Assembly: GCA_021792615.1 (NCBI GenBank)
Contig: JAJYUJ010000003.1
Location: 38,700 to 102,699 of the forward strand
DNA length: 64,000 bases
Source of the DNA: a bacterium
Lineage (GTDB): Bacteria; JAMCPX01
Direction: 5' to 3'
Shown: positions 8,626 through 60,185 of the stretch, in pieces
How positions within the stretch are numbered: the stretch's first letter is position 1
How the letters are laid out: each line of letters starts with the position of its first letter
Notes under the pieces: generated by a model
Databases searched by the model: none
The model's input: the letters and a program-made list of their open reading frames with translations, nothing else
What the model was told of the DNA's origin: nothing
Made by a program: the position numbers and the translations under genes

Positions 8626-8691
8626 GTCATTCCCGCGGAAGAGGGAATCCAGAAAAAAAAGAATGGATTCCATGTCAAGCCCGGAATGACA
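8626..8691. repeat. Inverted pair of GTCATTCC-type hairpins (empty mini-element)
   Basis: In the 183-base icd-mdh spacer. The left copy reads GTCATTCCCGC...GGGAATCCAG (8626-8652), with an ATTCCC/GGGAAT stem and a GGAA loop. After about 11 A-rich bases an inverted copy follows (8664-8691), ending GGAATGACAG and belonging to the GTCATTCCGGG subtype. The same outward-facing arrangement recurs at 52681-52780 and, around a gene, at 55983-56329. Confidence 0.85.
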
Positions 8692-50855: not shown

Positions 50856-50948
50856 ATCGTCGTTGCGAAACAAAGGTGAAGCAATCCCTCAAGAGTAGGG
50901 GAGATTGCTTCGTCGTCCCGCCTCCGGCGGGACTACTCGCAATGACCG
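50856..50948. repeat. Inverted pair of GTCATTGCGA/GCAATC-type repeats
   Basis: In the leuC-leuD spacer. The left arm (50857-50887) begins CGTCGTTGCGA and reaches GAAGCAATCCC; the right arm (50899-50948) is its complement, GAGATTGCTTCGTCG...TCGCAATGACC, with an inner hairpin GTCCCGCC/GGCGGGAC. The layout parallels the GTCATTCCC pairs: outward GTCATT-like ends with AATC inside. Confidence 0.75.
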
Positions 50949-51481: not shown

Positions 51482-51563
51482 AGATTCGTCGCCGTGGCAC
51501 CGGTGCGCCTCTTCTCAGAATGACAACGAATGTTCCGTCATTCTGAAGGAAGCGAAGAATCTG
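51482..51563. repeat. Inverted pair of GTCATTCTGA/GAATCT-type repeats
   Basis: In the leuD-leuB spacer. The left copy (51482-51524, on the minus strand) runs AGATTCGTCG...TCAGAATGAC; the right copy (51537-51563) is GTCATTCTGAAGG...GAAGAATCTG. Here the GTCATT ends face each other, the reverse of the other families in this window. The left copy holds an inner GGCACCGGTGCG palindrome. Confidence 0.75.
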
Positions 51564-51597
51564 CCGAGTAAAATAAATACAGTGGAGAATGAAGTAT

Positions 51598-52659
51598 ATG
51601 AAAAAGAAAATTGTTGTTTTCCCCGGGGACGGAATAGGACCGGAGGTTGTAGAGCAGGCAAAAAAGGTGCTTGCCAGGGTAGCGGAAAAAGGAAAGATTA
51701 AGCTCGAAATGCAGGAATTTCCTATCGGCGGTGCAAGCATAGATATCTATGGAGTGCCGCTCAAAGAAGAATATCTCAAGGAAGCAAAAAAGGCGGATGC
51801 TGTACTGCTGGGTGCAGTCGGAGGCCCAAAGTGGGATGTCGTTGAATCTTCTATCAGGCCTGAAAAGGCTTTGCTTGCACTCAGAGAGGGACTTAAGACG
51901 TACGCAAACCTCAGGCCTGCAAAACCTTATATAGCCTTGCTCAAGGCGTCAACCTTGAAACCCGAGGTCATAGAAAATGTTGATATACTGGTCGTACGGG
52001 AGCTAACCGGCGGCATATATTTCGGCAAACCAAGAGGCATAAAGGAGAACAAGAAAGGTTATAACACGCTTGTATATTCCCGCAAAGAGATTGAAAGGAT
52101 TGCGAAAAGGGCTTTTGAGGCGGCGATGCTCAGGAAGAACCATGTAACAAGCGTCGATAAGGCGAATATACTCGAAACATCCATGTTCTGGAGGCAAATC
52201 GTTAAAGAGGTCGCAGTCGCATATCCAGAGGTCAGACTCGATCACCTGTATGTCGACAATTGCGCTATGCAGATCATTCGGAACCCGGCGCAATTCGACG
52301 TCATACTCACGGACAATATGTTCGGCGACATTCTCAGCGACGAGGCATCCATGCTCACGGGCTCGCTGGGCATGCTTCCCTCGGCAAGTGTCGGCGACAA
52401 GAAGGGTCTCTATGAACCGATACACGGATCTGCACCTGACATTGCAGGCAAGGGTATTGCCAACCCCATTGCAACGATTGCGTCCGTTGCAATGATGTTC
52501 AGGTATTCATTTAACAGAATGGAGTTTTCTGATATGATAGAAAATGCGATACAAAAAGTGCTCGACGCCGGCTTCCGTACAAAGGACATAGACGATGGGA
52601 CTGGCAGGCTGGTCTCGACACAGGAAATGGGCGAGGAGATAGTGAAAAGGATAGAATAA
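51598..52659 (+). CDS. leuB: 3-isopropylmalate dehydrogenase
   Basis: A 353-residue NAD-dependent enzyme giving 2-oxoisocaproate, the third leucine step. It shows [14 protein letters not shown], the catalytic [16 protein letters not shown], the Lys segment [12 protein letters not shown], metal aspartates in [14 protein letters not shown], and the NAD motif [21 protein letters not shown] 51598 lies ten bases after GGAG; the ATG at 51589 is only one base from it and is unlikely. Confidence 0.96.
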
Positions 52660-52680
52660 AGGAATTCAATATTTCACTGT

Positions 52681-52780
52681 GTCATTCCCGCGAAAGTGGG
52701 AATCCAGATGTTGTTTTTTTGAAAGAAGTAAATTAAATAACATATAAAGGCCTGGATTCCCGTTTACACGGGAATAACAG
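52681..52780. repeat. Inverted pair of GTCATTCCCG hairpins (empty element)
   Basis: In the 209-base leuB-asd spacer. Left: 52681-52707, stem ATTCCCGC/GTGGGAAT with a GAAA loop and the end AATCCAG. Right: 52752-52780, inverted, stem ATTCCCGT/ACGGGAAT and, on the GTCATT-like strand, a GTAA loop. The 44 bases between are A/T-rich with no ORF. Its ends are the same as those of the GIY-YIG cassette at 55983-56329. Confidence 0.9.
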
Positions 52781-52868
52781 AAATGAGATAGAGCATTCCA
52801 ACTTTTATAAAAGCAGACAGGTTAAAGTAGTAACAATAGATTACAATTAAATTAAAGGAGTTAAGGAA

Positions 52869-53894
52869 ATGGGAAGTAAAAGTTATTCAGTTGCCATTGC
52901 AGGTGCGACCGGTGCAGTCGGCAATGTGATGCTGCAGTTACTCGAGGAACGTAAGTTTCCGGTCAGGGAATTGAAATTGCTTGCTTCAAGCAAGTCAAAA
53001 GGAAAGACCCTTACATTCAAGGGAGAAAATATATCAGTGGAAGAATTGGGACCCAAGTCCTTCACAGGTGTTGAGGTAGCCCTTTTTTCTGCTGGTGCTT
53101 CCAGGAGCAAGGAGTTCGCAAAATACGCCGTCGAAGCAGGGGCTGTCGTTATAGACAACAGCTCTGCATTCAGGATGGAGCCGGATATTCCGCTCGTGGT
53201 ACCGGAGATAAATCCCGATGCAATAAAGCAGTACAAGAAAACAGGTATTATCGCCAATCCGAATTGTACGACTATCGTTACACTCATGGGTGCAGCTCCC
53301 CTGCACAAGTACGGCAAAATAAAACGCATGGTAGCCACAAGCTATCAGGCGGTTTCCGGTGCTGGTGCAAAGGCAATGGCGGAGCTCGAGGCCCAGGTAA
53401 GGGCATGGGCAAAGGGAGAACCGCTCAAGGTAGAGGTGTTTCCTTATCAGATTGCATTCAATGTGTTGCCGCATATTGATGTTTTTCTTGAAAACGGATA
53501 TACAAAAGAAGAGATGAAGCTTATCAATGAATCAAGAAAGATATTGAACGATCAGACGATAAAGGTTTCTCCGACGACCGTCAGGGTGCCTGTTTTCAGG
53601 GCTCATTCTGTTGCCGTCAATATCCAGACGGAAAAGAAGATTACCCGGCAAAAGGCCATAGAGCTGATAAACGCATTCCCCGGGGTACAGGTCGAAGATG
53701 ACCCGGCGCACAAAAAGTATCCGATGCCGTTGTTCATAGCGGGTCAGGACGATTGCTTTGTCGGCAGGATTCGCGAAGACGATTCTGTCGAGAACGGCCT
53801 CAATTTCTGGGTTGTCGGCGATCAGCTTAAGAAAGGCGCTGCTCTCAATGCCATTCAAATAGCAGAGCAGATGATAAAGGACAAGCTGTTGTGA
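52869..53894 (+). CDS. asd: Aspartate-semialdehyde dehydrogenase
   Basis: A 341-residue enzyme making aspartate semialdehyde for lysine, threonine, methionine and diaminopimelate. It has the NADP motif [19 protein letters not shown], the catalytic Cys133 in ANPNCTTI, the segment [14 protein letters not shown] and the substrate His in [21 protein letters not shown] precedes the ATG. The stop overlaps the next reading frame's GTG. Confidence 0.96.
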
Positions 53895-56011
53895 ATGAAA
53901 AACGTTTGCATGCAGGAGGGGCAGGGCGTGCCCTGTCCGATAAAAAATCAGTTACATTCAGGGGCGGGGCGCTGCCTCGCCCTCTTCAAAAAGCAAGGGT
54001 TCAAAATTATAAACCTCTGCTCATAATACAGGTCCTTTTTAGTTTTCTTATTATTATCAGCTCTTTATTCGTTGCCGCATCCGCTGCATACGCGTTTCCC
54101 AACACAAAGGTTGCATCCATACCGGTTGGCAGCGGCCCTTACGGAATTGCGGGCAACGGAACGTATGCCGTTGTGGCAGAAAGCCAAACAGGAAGAGTGG
54201 ATATTATCAACCTTTCAACCAACACGCTTCTTTCCACAAGTGTTTTTGCCGGTACAAACCCATCCATGGTTGCTGTAACACCCGACGGAACACTCGCCTA
54301 TGTTACCGGTTATGGAAACAATGGGGCGAACACCACTGTTTATGCCGTAAGTCTGAACGCTTCGTCCAATTTTACCACATCTTCGGTTTCGGTCGGCAGC
54401 GGGCCTATCGGCATTGCGATAGTAAATAACATCGTGTTTGTAACAAATTATGGCAGTAATTCGTGGTCATATTTTCCCGTTGGCTCTTCTTCGCCGACAA
54501 CCGTGAACTCATGGGGAGGAGGACCTATCAGCATCGCTGCAAACGCAAGCGCAACCCAGGTTTATGTAGCCAACAGCACATCGAATACGGTCAATGTATT
54601 TCAGTCTAATTTTAATGGAACAAACACCTATGGTGTAACGGCAACGATTACCACGGGATTAAATCAACCGGACGCACTTTTATTGGTGCCGAATTCAACG
54701 ACCCTGTATGTTGCCAATGGGAATGGCAATACCCTGGATGTTATAAATACTTCTTCAAAGAGTGTTGTGGCTACTATCGCATTGCCTTCGGGCGGTCATC
54801 CGAACGGCCTCGCGCTTACGCCTGACAATGCGACCCTGATGGTCATGAATTCACCGGCAGGCGGTATTACCTATATTCAGGTATCCAACAACTCTGTAAT
54901 CAACAGCTTATCCCTGGGCTCGAACCTTGAACAGGCTTATATACCTTCCAATTCCAATGCCTATATTACGGATTATTCGGCAAACATGGTTTATCAGCTT
55001 TCAAGTGTAGTAACGATTATATCGGCAAGTCCTTCTGCTATCAATAATACTAACAACAATGTCTCTACAATTACATGGTCATCGACCATGTCGGGCACGT
55101 ATGAGGTGGAGATAGGAGGGAACGGCACCATGGGTACAGGCACGCCGATACCCGGAGACAGCGGCTCTGTGACCGCGGGCCAGCAGATGACGACACCGAT
55201 CTATGCGTCCGACCTTATCAATCTTGCCGGAGGTGCAAACGGGCCATACACGATATACATCTATGTAACGACCACGCAGGGGAGTATTGTCGCCTATACA
55301 TCCACGAACATTATACTCTTGACCACTGCACCGCAGCCTGCTTCCAATCTCTCTGCAACACCGGGTGATGGTAAAGCCCTTGTGAGCTGGACGGCAAGTC
55401 CCTCTCTGTACCTCGGCGGATACTCTCTTTATTATTCTACAGGTCTATTTGCTATCAATAGCCTTCCCGCAACCGTTGATGATGCAGGCAATACTACATC
55501 CTACACGCTGAGCGGACTTACCAACGGAACTCTGTATTATTTAGGCGTTGTCACCTATGATTTAGCCGGCAATACAAGCCCATTGAGTAATATTGCTACG
55601 GTTACGCCCGTCTACATACCGGGCCCGTCCGAAATTGCGGGACAGAAGGGTAATTGTTTCATTGCAACGGCAGCGTATGGATCATATGACGATTTCGATG
55701 TGTGGGTGTTGCGGCAGTTCCGCAACAAGGTCCTGCTGAAGAGCGACGCCGGCAGATGGTTTGTGAGAACGTATTACAGGCTCAGTCCTCCAATAGCCCA
55801 CTTCATAGCAGGGCATGACGCATTGAGGGCCATGGTACGGATATTGCTGAAACCGTTCGTCTTGGGGAGTATGGTGGTGCTCTACGGAACGACAATACAA
55901 AAGTTTATTATACTTTTCTTGTTTATGATAATATTCGTCATAGCAATAGAAGGTGTGAAACAAAAAGGAAAACTTCTGTTCTGTCATTCCCGTGAAAACG
56001 GGAATCCATAA
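53891..56011 (+). CDS. Secreted beta-propeller protein with fibronectin-III and CFI-box C-terminal domains
   Basis: Up to 706 residues. A hydrophobic signal segment [20 protein letters not shown] ends near AYA|FPN (about residue 69), unusually far from the GTG start. A YVTN-type beta-propeller of seven or so 40-residue repeats follows ([34 protein letters not shown]), then a fibronectin-III-like domain ([15 protein letters not shown]-type, about 490-580), and the CFI-box domain with [10 protein letters not shown] at residue 589, [23 protein letters not shown] and a final hydrophobic helix. Such C-termini are thought to mark surface proteins for sorting. The extreme N and C termini are encoded by repeat sequence; the last residues [10 protein letters not shown] are a translated GTCATTCCCG repeat. 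Confidence 0.75.
53919..53984. repeat. GC-rich hairpins at the 5' end of the CFI-box gene
   Basis: GGGCAGGGC-GT-GCCCTGTCC (53919-53938) and a second, less regular AGGGGCGGGGC...GCCTCGCCCT fold (about 53960-53984) lie in the first 30 codons of the following ORF. They resemble the hairpins at 9714-9786. In this reading frame they encode residues such as [10 protein letters not shown] and [10 protein letters not shown], which precede the signal peptide. Confidence 0.6.
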
Positions 56012-56329
56012 GAGTATTTATGACAAACCCCTATTATATTTATATATTAGCAAGCAGAAGGAACGGAACTTTATACGTTGGTGTTACAAACAATTTGATA
56101 AGGCGTATATATGAACATAAAGAAAACATTGTAGATGGTTTTACAAAACGATTTAGTGTTCATTCATTAGTATATTTTGAGCAAACAAATGATATAAATA
56201 GTGCATTATTAAGAGAGAAACAATTAAAGAAATGGAATAGAAAATGGAAGATAGAATTAATAGAAGGATTTAATCCAGAATGGGAAGATTTAGCAAAAGA
56301 CTGGATTCCCACTTCCGTGGGAATGACAG
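55983..56329. mobile_element. Putative GIY-YIG cassette bounded by inverted GTCATTCCC hairpins
   Basis: The left end (55983-56008) has stem ATTCCCGT/ACGGGAAT and loop GAAA. The right end (56302-56329) is inverted, stem ATTCCCAC/GTGGGAAT, with loop GGAA on the corresponding strand. The two ends differ by paired, compensating stem changes, so the fold is kept. A 114-codon GIY-YIG nuclease gene fills the 347-bp unit and its reading frame runs out through the right end. The empty pairs at 8626-8691 and 52681-52780 look like shortened copies. Mobility is inferred. Confidence 0.55.
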
Positions 56330-56364
56330 AAAAAAATAGTAGAATGGCAGGTTGCTCTTTATAA
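56020..56364 (+). CDS. Small GIY-YIG nuclease-family protein
   Basis: A 114-residue protein of the single-domain GIY-YIG group (UPF0213/YhbQ-like). The motif pair reads YIYIL (residues 6-10) and YVGVT (19-23), followed by the catalytic-type Arg in NNLIRRIYEHKE, and the Glu segment LLREKQLKKWNR. Residues from about 94 on (DWIPTSVGMT) are encoded by the right-hand repeat of the cassette, and the stop lies 35 bases beyond. Codon use is AT-rich compared with neighbours, suggesting separate origin. The family cuts DNA in repair, restriction or homing contexts; the exact role of these small free-standing proteins is not established. Confidence 0.85.
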   Translation: MTNPYYIYILASRRNGTLYVGVTNNLIRRIYEHKENIVDGFTKRFSVHSLVYFEQTNDINSALLREKQLKKWNRKWKIELIEGFNPEWEDLAKDWIPTSVGMTEKNSRMAGCSL

Positions 56365-56377
56365 GGAGAGAATAAGT

Positions 56378-57022
56378 ATGCTGAAGAGAGTTGTTTTGAT
56401 ATTATTATTTTTAGGTTTTATAAATGTGTCTGCCCGGGCATCAGACAATGTTCATTATGAGCTTACGCTTGGAGCGGGTGCAGTTCATTTTACAAAAGAC
56501 CCCGTGCTTCAGTCATTTTATAAGAACAACTATGTGCCGATGTATCAGCTCAATGCAGGCGTGTTGTTTTATCATTTTATCGGTCTTGACGGCACTCTTG
56601 GGTTTGTCTATGGCAAACACACTCTCTATGCGCAGCCCGGTGTCGGACAGCAGTATACCCTTATGGTTTACCCTGCACGGCTGGATGCTGTTCTCCAGTT
56701 ACGCTTGCGGGACGATCAGGTTATTTATCCCTATATCGGAGCCGGTGGAGTTGCAACGGGTTTTTATCAAATAGCGTCCGGAGGCGGCAAAATAGTCAGC
56801 GGATATAAATATGGATATAACTGGATAGGCGGTATTCATATTTTGCTCGATCCAATCGATATGAGGCATGTCGGCAACCTGCGTACGGAATACGGTATCG
56901 ATCATGTGTATATTGACATAAGGATCGGTCAGGACATGGTAAACGATTTTCATAAAAGCAGCAGTACGGGATTTGATTTTTCCACCCAGTACATCATCGG
57001 AGCTTTCGGCTTCGAATTTTGA
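56378..57022 (+). CDS. Outer-membrane beta-barrel protein of unknown function
   Basis: A 214-residue exported protein. The signal peptide is cleaved near ARA|SD (residue 21). The rest alternates polar and hydrophobic residues with aromatic girdles (YELTLGAGAVHF; IGLDGTLGFVYG; VIYPYIGAGGVATGFY) and ends GAFGFEF with a terminal Phe, the signal recognised by the Bam complex. It resembles eight-strand OmpW/OmpA-like barrels, but I cannot name the family. AAGGAG precedes the ATG. The last codons run into a period-7 repeat array. Confidence 0.7.
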   Translation: MLKRVVLILLFLGFINVSARASDNVHYELTLGAGAVHFTKDPVLQSFYKNNYVPMYQLNAGVLFYHFIGLDGTLGFVYGKHTLYAQPGVGQQYTLMVYPARLDAVLQLRLRDDQVIYPYIGAGGVATGFYQIASGGGKIVSGYKYGYNWIGGIHILLDPIDMRHVGNLRTEYGIDHVYIDIRIGQDMVNDFHKSSSTGFDFSTQYIIGAFGFEF

Positions 57023-57110
57023 ATCATGAGTTTTTAATCTTTAATCTTGATTCTTTGATTCCCCATCTTAATTTTATTTTGAATCTTGAGTTTTTAATTT
57101 TCAATTTCTT
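57012..57110. repeat. Period-7 arrays between the barrel gene and truA
   Basis: From 57012 seven-base units run TCGAATT, TTGAATC, ATGAGTT, TTTAATC, TTTAATC, TTGATTC, TTTGATT. A second similar run begins TTTTGAATC at 57077, 60 bases after the first such word at 57017. The array starts inside the last codons of the barrel gene and ends four bases before the truA ATG. Confidence 0.75.
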
Positions 57111-57113
57111 AAA

Positions 57114-57893
57114 ATGATGCGCAACATAAAACTTATCGTCGAGTACGACGGCACAAACTACAAGGGCTGGCAGGATCAACAATCCGCTCATCATTCAGAG
57201 CGGAAGGGCAAAAGGCCTGAAGCACAGAATACCCTCTTGACCATACAGGGGATACTGAGAGAAGCGATTGGCAGGATAACACATGAAGACATAAAGCTCA
57301 CCGGAGCGGGGCGGACGGATTCCGGGGTGCATGCGCAGGGGCAGGTGGCGAATTTTTATACCGTATCGGATTTTACGATCGAAAGGTTTCCGTTAGCCAT
57401 CAATGCATATTTGCCCTATGACATTGCCGTAAAATGTGCGGAAGAAGTGCCTTTGGAATTCAATGCAAGAAACGATGCAAAAGCCAGAGAATACCTGTAT
57501 GTAATCAATAATCACAAATTCAGGACAGCACTGAAAAGGCTATACAGCTTTCATGTACCTCCGAAACTGGATATTCAGGCCATGCAGCAGGCTGCCGGGT
57601 ACTTGATCGGAGAGCATGATTTTACCGGATTTGCGTTCGGCAACAAAGGAAAAAGGACCAGGAACATCATGAAGCTTGAGATAAAGAAAAAGGATGACTT
57701 TTTGTATATAACTGTTAAAGCAAATAGCTTCCTCATGCACATGGTACGGTATATCGTCGCAGCATTGCTTGAGGCAGGAAAAAGGAAAATGAAACCAGAA
57801 GACATAAAACTTTATCTTGAGCCGGCACTGAGGAAATGGACGCATTCCCGTGCACCGGCGCGGGGATTGTTTTTAATGAAGGTAGAGTATTGA
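57114..57893 (+). CDS. truA: tRNA pseudouridine(38-40) synthase TruA, with a small insertion
   Basis: A 259-residue enzyme modifying positions 38-40 of tRNA anticodon arms. It opens [17 protein letters not shown], the catalytic Asp69 is in [14 protein letters not shown], and [19 protein letters not shown] is the conserved C-terminal motif. Between KGWQDQQ and the TIQGIL strand there are about 15 residues more than usual ([15 protein letters not shown]), containing a DNA hairpin TCCGCTC/GAGCGGA at 57183-57204. Start at 57114 or the adjacent 57117 ATG; no clear SD. Its stop overlaps the lepA ATG. Confidence 0.94.
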
Positions 57894-59698: not shown

Positions 59699-60185
59699 AA
59701 ATTCTAAATTCTAAGTCCTAAATTCTAAATAAAATAAAATGACTGACATTCAAAATAAAAAACAATATAATTTAGAGGAGAGAACATTTGATTTTACAAA
59801 ACGAGTTATTGAATTTGTAAACAAATTACAAAAGACATTGCCAAATATTGAGATTGCAAAACAATTAATAAGATCTGCTGGTTCAGTTGGAGCAAACTAT
59901 ATTGAAGCAAATGAGTCCCTGAGCAAAAAAGATTTTATTATGAGGATAAAGATTTCTCGTAAAGAGGCAAAAGAAAGTCGTTATTGGTTAAAACTTATCA
60001 ACTGTTATAATAAAGAAGCAGAAAAAGAACAGCAAGATCTTGTGCAAGAAGCTTATGAACTCAAGAAAATCTTTGGAGCAATATTAATAAAAACGAATTC
60101 TAAGCTCGAAACACAAAATCCTAAACAACTTTGAATATTATGATATTAAATTTGTTTAGGATTTAGATATTAGTATTTCGGATTT
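59699..60185. mobile_element. Putative cassette: four-helix-bundle gene between inverted 7-bp repeat arrays
   Basis: The left end is AAATTCT, AAATTCT, AAGTCCT, AAATTCT, AAATAAA (59699-59733). The right end is the complement type, AGGATTT, AGATATT, AGTATTT, CGGATTT (60158-60185). The 3' end of the gene itself also has units (GAATTCT, AAGCTCG, AAACACA, AAATCCT; 60095-60122), and AAATCCTAAACAA at 60116-60128 pairs perfectly with 60152-60164 as a 13-bp hairpin. The 487-bp unit separates lepA from lepB, which normally adjoin. That it moves is inferred. Confidence 0.55.
59739..60134 (+). CDS. Four-helix-bundle protein (23S rRNA intervening-sequence protein family)
   Basis: A 131-residue helical protein with the family marks IAKQLIRSAGSVGANYIEANES and KKDFIMRIKISRKEAKES followed by RYWLKL. 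Relatives are encoded inside 23S rRNA intervening sequences (S23/IVP), and another relative (Avd) works in diversity-generating retroelements. This free-standing copy has neither context; instead it is enclosed by 7-bp repeats. Its last dozen residues (NSKLETQNPKQL) are encoded by that repeat. Base composition is AT-rich compared with lepA and lepB. No good SD is visible before the ATG. Confidence 0.88.
   Translation: MTDIQNKKQYNLEERTFDFTKRVIEFVNKLQKTLPNIEIAKQLIRSAGSVGANYIEANESLSKKDFIMRIKISRKEAKESRYWLKLINCYNKEAEKEQQDLVQEAYELKKIFGAILIKTNSKLETQNPKQL

Follow-up and report, generated by a model that had tools for sequence, protein, structure and literature searches.

The window analysed here is a stretch of 64,000 nucleotides of bacterial DNA. 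Between two host genes it carries a small gene for a GIY-YIG nuclease, which is enclosed by two tagged hairpins in inverted orientation, as a first-pass annotation of this DNA had noticed. The same annotation had pointed to inverted hairpin pairs without a gene elsewhere in the window, and these were indeed found at 8626-8690 and 52681-52778, the second arm at the former site being a different, imperfect variant of the stem. The features are as follows.

8626-8651, plus strand: gene-less hairpin, left arm of an F-R pair
8664-8690, minus strand: gene-less hairpin, right arm of this pair, with a divergent stem
52681-52706, plus strand: gene-less hairpin, left arm of an F-R pair
52753-52778, minus strand: gene-less hairpin, right arm of this F-R pair, with the tag GTT rather than GTC
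53891-56011, plus strand: upstream host gene, for a beta-propeller/fn3 protein with a CFI-box C terminus, ending in the left hairpin
55983-56327, plus strand: the complete proposed mobile unit, 345 bp from outer hairpin edge to outer hairpin edge
55983-56008, plus strand: left (5′) terminal hairpin, GTCATTCCCGTGAAAACGGGAATCCA, with a GTC tag, an 8-bp stem (ATTCCCGT/ACGGGAAT), a 4-nt loop and a CCA tail
56020-56364, plus strand: GIY-YIG nuclease gene, of which codons 1-94 are the family-specific part and the domain
56302-56327, minus strand: right (3′) terminal hairpin, GTCATTCCCACGGAAGTGGGAATCCA, an inverted copy with a variant stem
56378-57022, plus strand: downstream host gene, for an MXAN_2562-like outer-membrane beta-barrel

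The boundaries of the unit were set by analogy with duplicated units in other genomes (G027, L066/L074 and G055). Both terminal hairpins are predicted to fold into an 8-bp stem with a 4-nt loop (z about -4), and both have a YGTC tag, which is TGTC in the window, and a CCA tail. Exact ATTCCC..GGGAAT palindromes number 41 in the 2.54-Mb genome, compared with 1 for a reversed control pattern, which excludes a chance origin.

The hairpins are also read as protein. The left hairpin forms the last codons of the upstream open reading frame (..CHSRENGNP*), as had been annotated. The right hairpin had been described as the end of the nuclease gene; it does encode approximately codons 95-104 (..DWIPTSVGMT..), but the open reading frame extends beyond it, to position 56364. 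At 55960-56011, the C terminus of the upstream CFI-box protein, which in a congener (G002) ends ..RRHTYA*, has been replaced by the hairpin; judged by this alignment, it is an example of a mobile repeat recoding the end of a protein. Many small genes annotated as "GIY-YIG nuclease family" end in read-through tails resembling WIPxxxGMT, and the hairpin unit may explain these tails.

The hairpins belong to a known class of repeats

The CGTC-tagged REPs have a CGTC, TGTC or CCTC tag, a stem of 8-9 bp starting with AT, a loop of 4-5 nt and a CCA tail, occur mostly as head-to-head pairs, and include dRS3 of Neisseria and RPE-4 and RPE-6 of Rickettsia [Di Nocera et al. 2013, PMC3733652]. In N. meningitidis, dRS3 (ATTCCC-N8-GGGAAT) is present in about 700 copies [PMC3898611]. 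The hairpins of the window, and most hairpins flanking the related units described below, fit this class in tag, stem, loop, tail and pairing. In the upstream hairpins of these units, the position preceding GTC (which the hairpin finder required) is C at a frequency of 0.56 and T at 0.40; the stem is followed by C (0.98), C (0.89) and A (0.92), and some relatives have longer loops. The repeats are dispersed and multicopy, and among 32 close hairpin pairs away from GIY-YIG genes, 18 are F-R, compared with 14 in all other arrangements; in the genome of the window itself, 7 of the 9 close pairs away from nuclease genes are F-R.

Several other repeats lie in the window. Gene-less tagged repeats of the types GTCATTGCGAG..GAAGCAATCT and GTCATTCTGA..GAATCT are present at 50902-50946 (minus strand), 51482-51524 (minus strand) and 51537-51562 (plus strand), adjoining an isopropylmalate dehydrogenase-like gene (51589-52659); the repeats of the GTCATTGCGAG..GAAGCAATCT type match those that bracket a second nuclease gene in this genome, on contig C62. 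CGTC repeats are present in Wolbachia, and the region of the second gene-less pair (52660-52797) has a weak, below-threshold match (27.1 bits, Rfam) to the Wolbachia sRNA WsnRNA46, an RNA family that may contain CGTC repeats. A gene for a four-helix bundle of the 23S rRNA intervening-sequence type (59739-60134) is situated between AT-rich repeats of the AAATTCTAAATCCTAA type and looks like another small gene travelling with its own repeat family. Between the beta-barrel gene and truA lies a dispersed repeat of about 100 bp (57014-57115); the rest of the genome and congeners contain many matches to it at 70-90%.

The nuclease

The protein matches PF01541 (E=6.4e-16) and has a plain GIY-YIG domain. 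The catalytic Tyr, Arg, Glu and Asn of the GIY-YIG superfamily are in place: residues Y8, Y19, G21, R29, H33, E66 and N85 are all present, and each is at least 99% conserved in about 150 relatives. In an AlphaFold2 model (pLDDT 93), the closest folds are UPF0213 (1zg2, 1ywl), followed by the structure-specific nuclease Slx1. The match to TIGR01453 is weak, searches of PHROGs, PADLOC and Rfam gave no strong assignment, and phage records contain only distant relatives, about 35% identical.

With the UPF0213 proteins (E. coli YhbQ-like), the nuclease shares its size and its nearest solved structures. With homing endonucleases of the I-TevI type, which are associated with group I introns, it shares the catalytic domain; it differs from them in being only about 95 amino acids long, in lacking a DNA-binding extension and an intron, and in being flanked by palindromes. 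A group I intron or intein context was not found for the nuclease of the window, which is inserted between genes and has no Rfam intron match in the surrounding region (52500-57200).

The second relative in this genome, on contig C62, appeared unflanked when the strict ATTCCC..GGGAAT motif was applied. This was overturned once the tag was considered: the gene is bracketed by a tagged repeat variant, GTCATTGCGAG..GACGAAGCAATC, and the GTCATTGCGAG-type repeat begins 45 bp before the ATG.

Hairpins flank the nuclease gene in more than 20 phyla

A search of 84,980 species genomes yielded 80 close relatives of the nuclease, 55-74% identical and from more than 20 phyla, many of them in draft metagenome assemblies; searches at the levels of class and phylum (nine genomes of the phylum) added nothing. 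Within 200 bp of the gene, oriented tagged hairpins are found upstream in 62 of the 80 loci and downstream in 65 of 76, on both sides in 55 of 76 and on either side in 69 of the 76 testable loci. For control open reading frames of 100 amino acids or more on the same contigs, the corresponding counts are 3/391 for both sides (Fisher p = 4e-50 against the nuclease relatives) and 31/391 for either side. The nearest upstream hairpin is in the plus orientation in 48 of 62 cases and the nearest downstream hairpin in the minus orientation in 57 of 68. An independent set of relatives, found in the order of Nitrosomonas with a Neisseria gonorrhoeae homologue as the query, has hairpins on both sides in 17 of 30 cases and on either side in 25 of 30.

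The other genes compared are not arranged in this manner. None of 29 UPF0213 GIY-YIG genes, all taken from genomes that have the hairpin-type nuclease, is flanked by hairpins, and in the same or related genomes the same holds for UvrC (0/15), other small PF01541 genes (0/9) and Y1 transposases (Y1_Tnp, 0/29); UPF0213, UvrC and Y1 genes together amount to 0/73. The association with hairpins that had been anticipated for relatives of the nuclease is thus borne out in both sets and is absent from these controls.

The hairpin search pattern was designed after examples had been inspected, and the control genes and a motif-free test guard against circularity. In the latter, the longest inverted match between the two flanks of a unit was at least 14 nt in 74 of 152 units, compared with 3.6% of permuted pairs, i.e., flanks of different loci. 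Most of these matches carry the GTC tag. The stems found in this way vary widely (ATTCCCGC, ATCCCCGC, ATTCCGGC, ATGCCCGC, ATTCTGAA, ATACCGGC), and the second arm always matches. Similarly, the stem feet of the two hairpins of one unit agree in 64 of 86 cases, compared with 22.8 expected. In the genomes compared, inverted hairpins with a YGTC tag and a CCA tail enclose one particular subfamily of the small GIY-YIG nucleases, and this is so across more than 20 phyla.

There are variations on this arrangement. Some units, a minority, have a whole hairpin pair on each side of the gene (e.g. L037, L106). In S. meliloti and Rhizobium, nuclease relatives lie beside CTCATCCCTGTGCTCGTCACAGGGATCCAG repeats, which fit the CCTC variant of the tag and are putative RIME repeats; at one such locus (L107) the repeats are downstream only, beyond 180 bp. 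The Neisseria gonorrhoeae homologue (L105, 3001-3255) is located within a dRS3 array; no in-frame ATG is found near the start of its domain, and it is possibly a frameshifted copy. On a plasmid of Planktothrix agardhii (L109), the nuclease gene is situated among GTCATTCTGAGTGAAACGAAGAATCTC repeats, between an MmeI-type restriction gene and the DISARM gene drmA.

Boundaries of the unit and empty sites

Duplicated copies define what is copied. G027 has two copies that share 98.4% identity over 427 bp, with unrelated sequence on either side; the block that they have in common starts at (CTCT)GTCATTCCC and stops at GGGAATGACA, and the nuclease variants of this genome have the stems ATTCCCGCGCAG and ATTCTGAACTTG. 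The same boundaries are seen in L066/L074, a pair from two genomes (86%), and in a G055 pair whose hairpins are of a different type. In all three cases, the edges of the block are the GTCAT/ATGAC edges of the hairpins. By alignment, the copied block ends at the outer hairpin edges, with unrelated flanks beyond, as in copies of an insertion sequence bounded by its terminal inverted repeats. The G027 pair has no clear target-site duplication. Units are typically 330-680 bp long, with a median of about 395 bp.

Two further sets of copies were set aside. Those of Thiohalomonas (L178) share sequence beyond the nearest hairpins and were left out as evidence on boundaries. The only large amplification within one genome, in a member of the Dehalococcoidia (G044, L162-L171), contains the nuclease gene about 11 times, as copies or fragments, several of them with stop codons, and is carried by another transposon, with ISL3-like outer ends (GGCTCTTTTTCA..); it was not taken as proof of activity of the unit. 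From its ends, the G044 element is an IS-type miniature element that captured a hairpin unit.

Empty sites show the converse. In the congener G002, the CFI-box gene and the MXAN_2562-like beta-barrel gene are adjacent, with neither hairpin nor nuclease gene, so the presence/absence comparison proposed for this locus came out as expected for an insertion. In Azospirillum lipoferum 4B, a relative of the nuclease, with one hairpin pair to either side of it, separates sufB from sufC; in A. ramasamyi, A. oryzae and strain B510 (95-96.5% identity), sufB and sufC are found with neither the gene nor the hairpins. At these empty sites, hairpins and gene are missing together and no hairpin pair is present; the junctions are too diverged for a target-site duplication to be read. 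As far as these genomes can be aligned, gene junctions that are otherwise conserved have a unit in some genomes and lack it in others.

Stem type, nuclease lineage and hairpin number

When stem classes are mapped onto the protein tree of the nucleases, they change 43 times, compared with a mean of 55.5 and a minimum of 49 in 200 shuffles. Host phylum changes 25 times, compared with 25.9 expected, i.e., phyla are scattered as if at random. Within the Pseudomonadota alone the signal of stem class is weaker (14 changes vs 17.0; 2/200 shuffles), and in the 23 rows of the tree from other phyla there is none. Paralogues within one genome often differ in stem. Over the whole tree, the type of hairpin stem covaries with the lineage of the nuclease and not with the phylum of the host.

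The number of hairpins is not independent of the gene, as it might have been had the two been unrelated. In 300 genomes of one order, at least one hairpin of the GTCATYCCC type is present in 34 of 49 gene-positive and 44 of 251 gene-negative genomes (p = 2e-12), and at least four are present in 25/49 and 23/251, respectively (p = 1e-10); the odds ratios are about 10, in tests that ignore relatedness. Genomes with units also contain gene-less pairs arranged in the same inverted manner, and in this sample hairpin number rises with the presence of the gene. Fifteen of the 49 gene-positive genomes are without dRS3-type hairpins, dRS3-type stems alone having been counted. Some genomes in which the nuclease was not detected are rich in hairpins (G260, G276, G128 and G308, with 64-102 copies), and therefore the gene is not needed to keep hairpins; in such genomes, the hairpins may outlive the gene, there may be another mover, or the gene may have been missed in drafts.

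What mobilises the hairpins?

The 345-bp unit of hairpin, GIY-YIG gene and hairpin is probably a very small mobile element, whose nuclease would recognise and cut its cognate hairpin and would be the missing mobility enzyme of the CGTC-tagged REPs. Three other explanations were weighed against this one.

The main rival, which we consider unlikely, holds that the nuclease is a passenger: as a free-standing homing endonuclease it would cut hairpin pairs and insert copies of itself there, while the hairpins would owe their spread to something else, such as replication slippage, a RAYT or a phage integrase. Homing endonucleases of the GIY-YIG type are common, which favours this explanation, as do the position of the gene within or between hairpin pairs and the existence of hairpin-rich genomes without it; moreover, a known integrase, that of phage Nf1, has dRS3 as its target [PMC3898611]. 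However, a passenger would not readily account for a duplicated block that includes both hairpins and has unrelated sequence outside, nor for empty sites, which lack the hairpins as well as the gene and contain no hairpin pair ready to receive it, nor for stem variants that follow the nuclease tree. As for the spreading of the hairpins by a Y1 transposase, this candidate was rejected: not one of the 29 Y1 genes is flanked, in agreement with the earlier survey [PMC3733652], and Y1 transposases were not detected in several hairpin-rich carriers (e.g. G169, G321). It is the block boundaries, the empty sites and the covariation that disfavour the passenger.

Considerably less probable is a domesticated caretaker, i.e., a host nuclease that acts on cruciforms of the repeats by resolving or removing them and that selection keeps near its substrates, but that does not spread the repeats. 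The similarity of its fold to structure-specific Slx1 and the fully conserved active site would suit such a role. Against it, phylum labels are random on the protein tree, and the gene is distributed patchily, even within a genus; some copies contain internal stop codons, and there are genomes with several paralogues; and the unit has been inserted between operon partners such as sufB and sufC. This is the behaviour of a selfish element, and therefore the caretaker is disfavoured.

That the hairpins are ordinary terminators or mRNA-stabilising structures near a small intergenic gene by chance is scarcely credible: REPs are often intergenic and can act as RNA hairpins [PMC3733652], but the consistency of tag, tail and inverted orientation between the two sides across many phyla, the absence of hairpins from UPF0213 genes of equal size and fold, and block duplication at the hairpin edges speak against it, and the flank controls and the motif-free test exclude terminators as a sufficient explanation.

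A mobile element driven by its own nuclease therefore remains the preferred reading, and the steps of its movement can be proposed. The nuclease would recognise its cognate hairpin, whether as a hairpin, a cruciform or a palindromic duplex, and would cut at or near the GTC foot. Cutting would lead to copying of the unit and, in trans, of gene-less F-R pairs into new sites, either through single-strand excision and reinsertion, on the model of IS200/REP, or through repair of a double-strand break, on the model of homing. The unit would be the autonomous element, and the gene-less hairpin pairs its miniature derivatives; the predominance of the F-R arrangement among gene-less pairs is the pattern expected if they derive from F-gene-R.

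In many respects this resembles the REP/RAYT systems (TnpA-REP, REPINs), in which an IS200/IS605-like Y1 transposase is paired with GTAG-tagged REPs. In both, the gene is flanked by inverted tagged palindromes, gene-less paired palindromes are dispersed, and palindrome variants match lineages. The enzyme is different, as GIY-YIG is unrelated to the HUH Y1 fold; the tag in the window and its relatives is YGTC and not GTAG; YGTC hairpins do not flank Y1 genes; and the nuclease of the hairpin unit moves between phyla. The 2013 survey came upon no transposase gene with CGTC repeats at its flanks and took these repeats to be, apparently, without a transposase of their own [PMC3733652], whereas here a dedicated nuclease gene is bracketed by these repeats. 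As the hairpins are CGTC-tagged REPs (dRS3, RPE-4/6), the nuclease would be their missing mobility enzyme and would fill for them the role of the RAYT transposases for GTAG-tagged REPs. The open-access literature searched, which included few subscription papers and no preprints, gave no link between GIY-YIG and CGTC-type repeats. The suggestion of the first-pass annotation, that a GIY-YIG enzyme takes the place of the Y1 transposase in driving a REP-like system, is strengthened by these comparisons: that the nuclease recognises the repeats is well supported, if indirectly, and that it moves them we infer.

Implications

With less assurance, we lean towards a broader claim: that these units could constitute a new class of transposable elements that are autonomous, with tagged hairpins as their ends and a single gene, for a stand-alone GIY-YIG nuclease of about 95 amino acids. 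Such elements would have spread horizontally over more than 20 phyla and would be the source of CGTC-tagged REPs such as the meningococcal dRS3 copies. Few bacterial repeats are as widespread as these REPs, which shape the genomes of, for example, Neisseria, Rickettsia and rhizobia; a candidate enzyme can now be named for them, with matched variants of nuclease and hairpin in many genomes. If the proposal is true, the dissemination of REPs would have a second solution, chemically unrelated to RAYT, and at about 345 bp such elements would rank with the smallest autonomous mobile elements.
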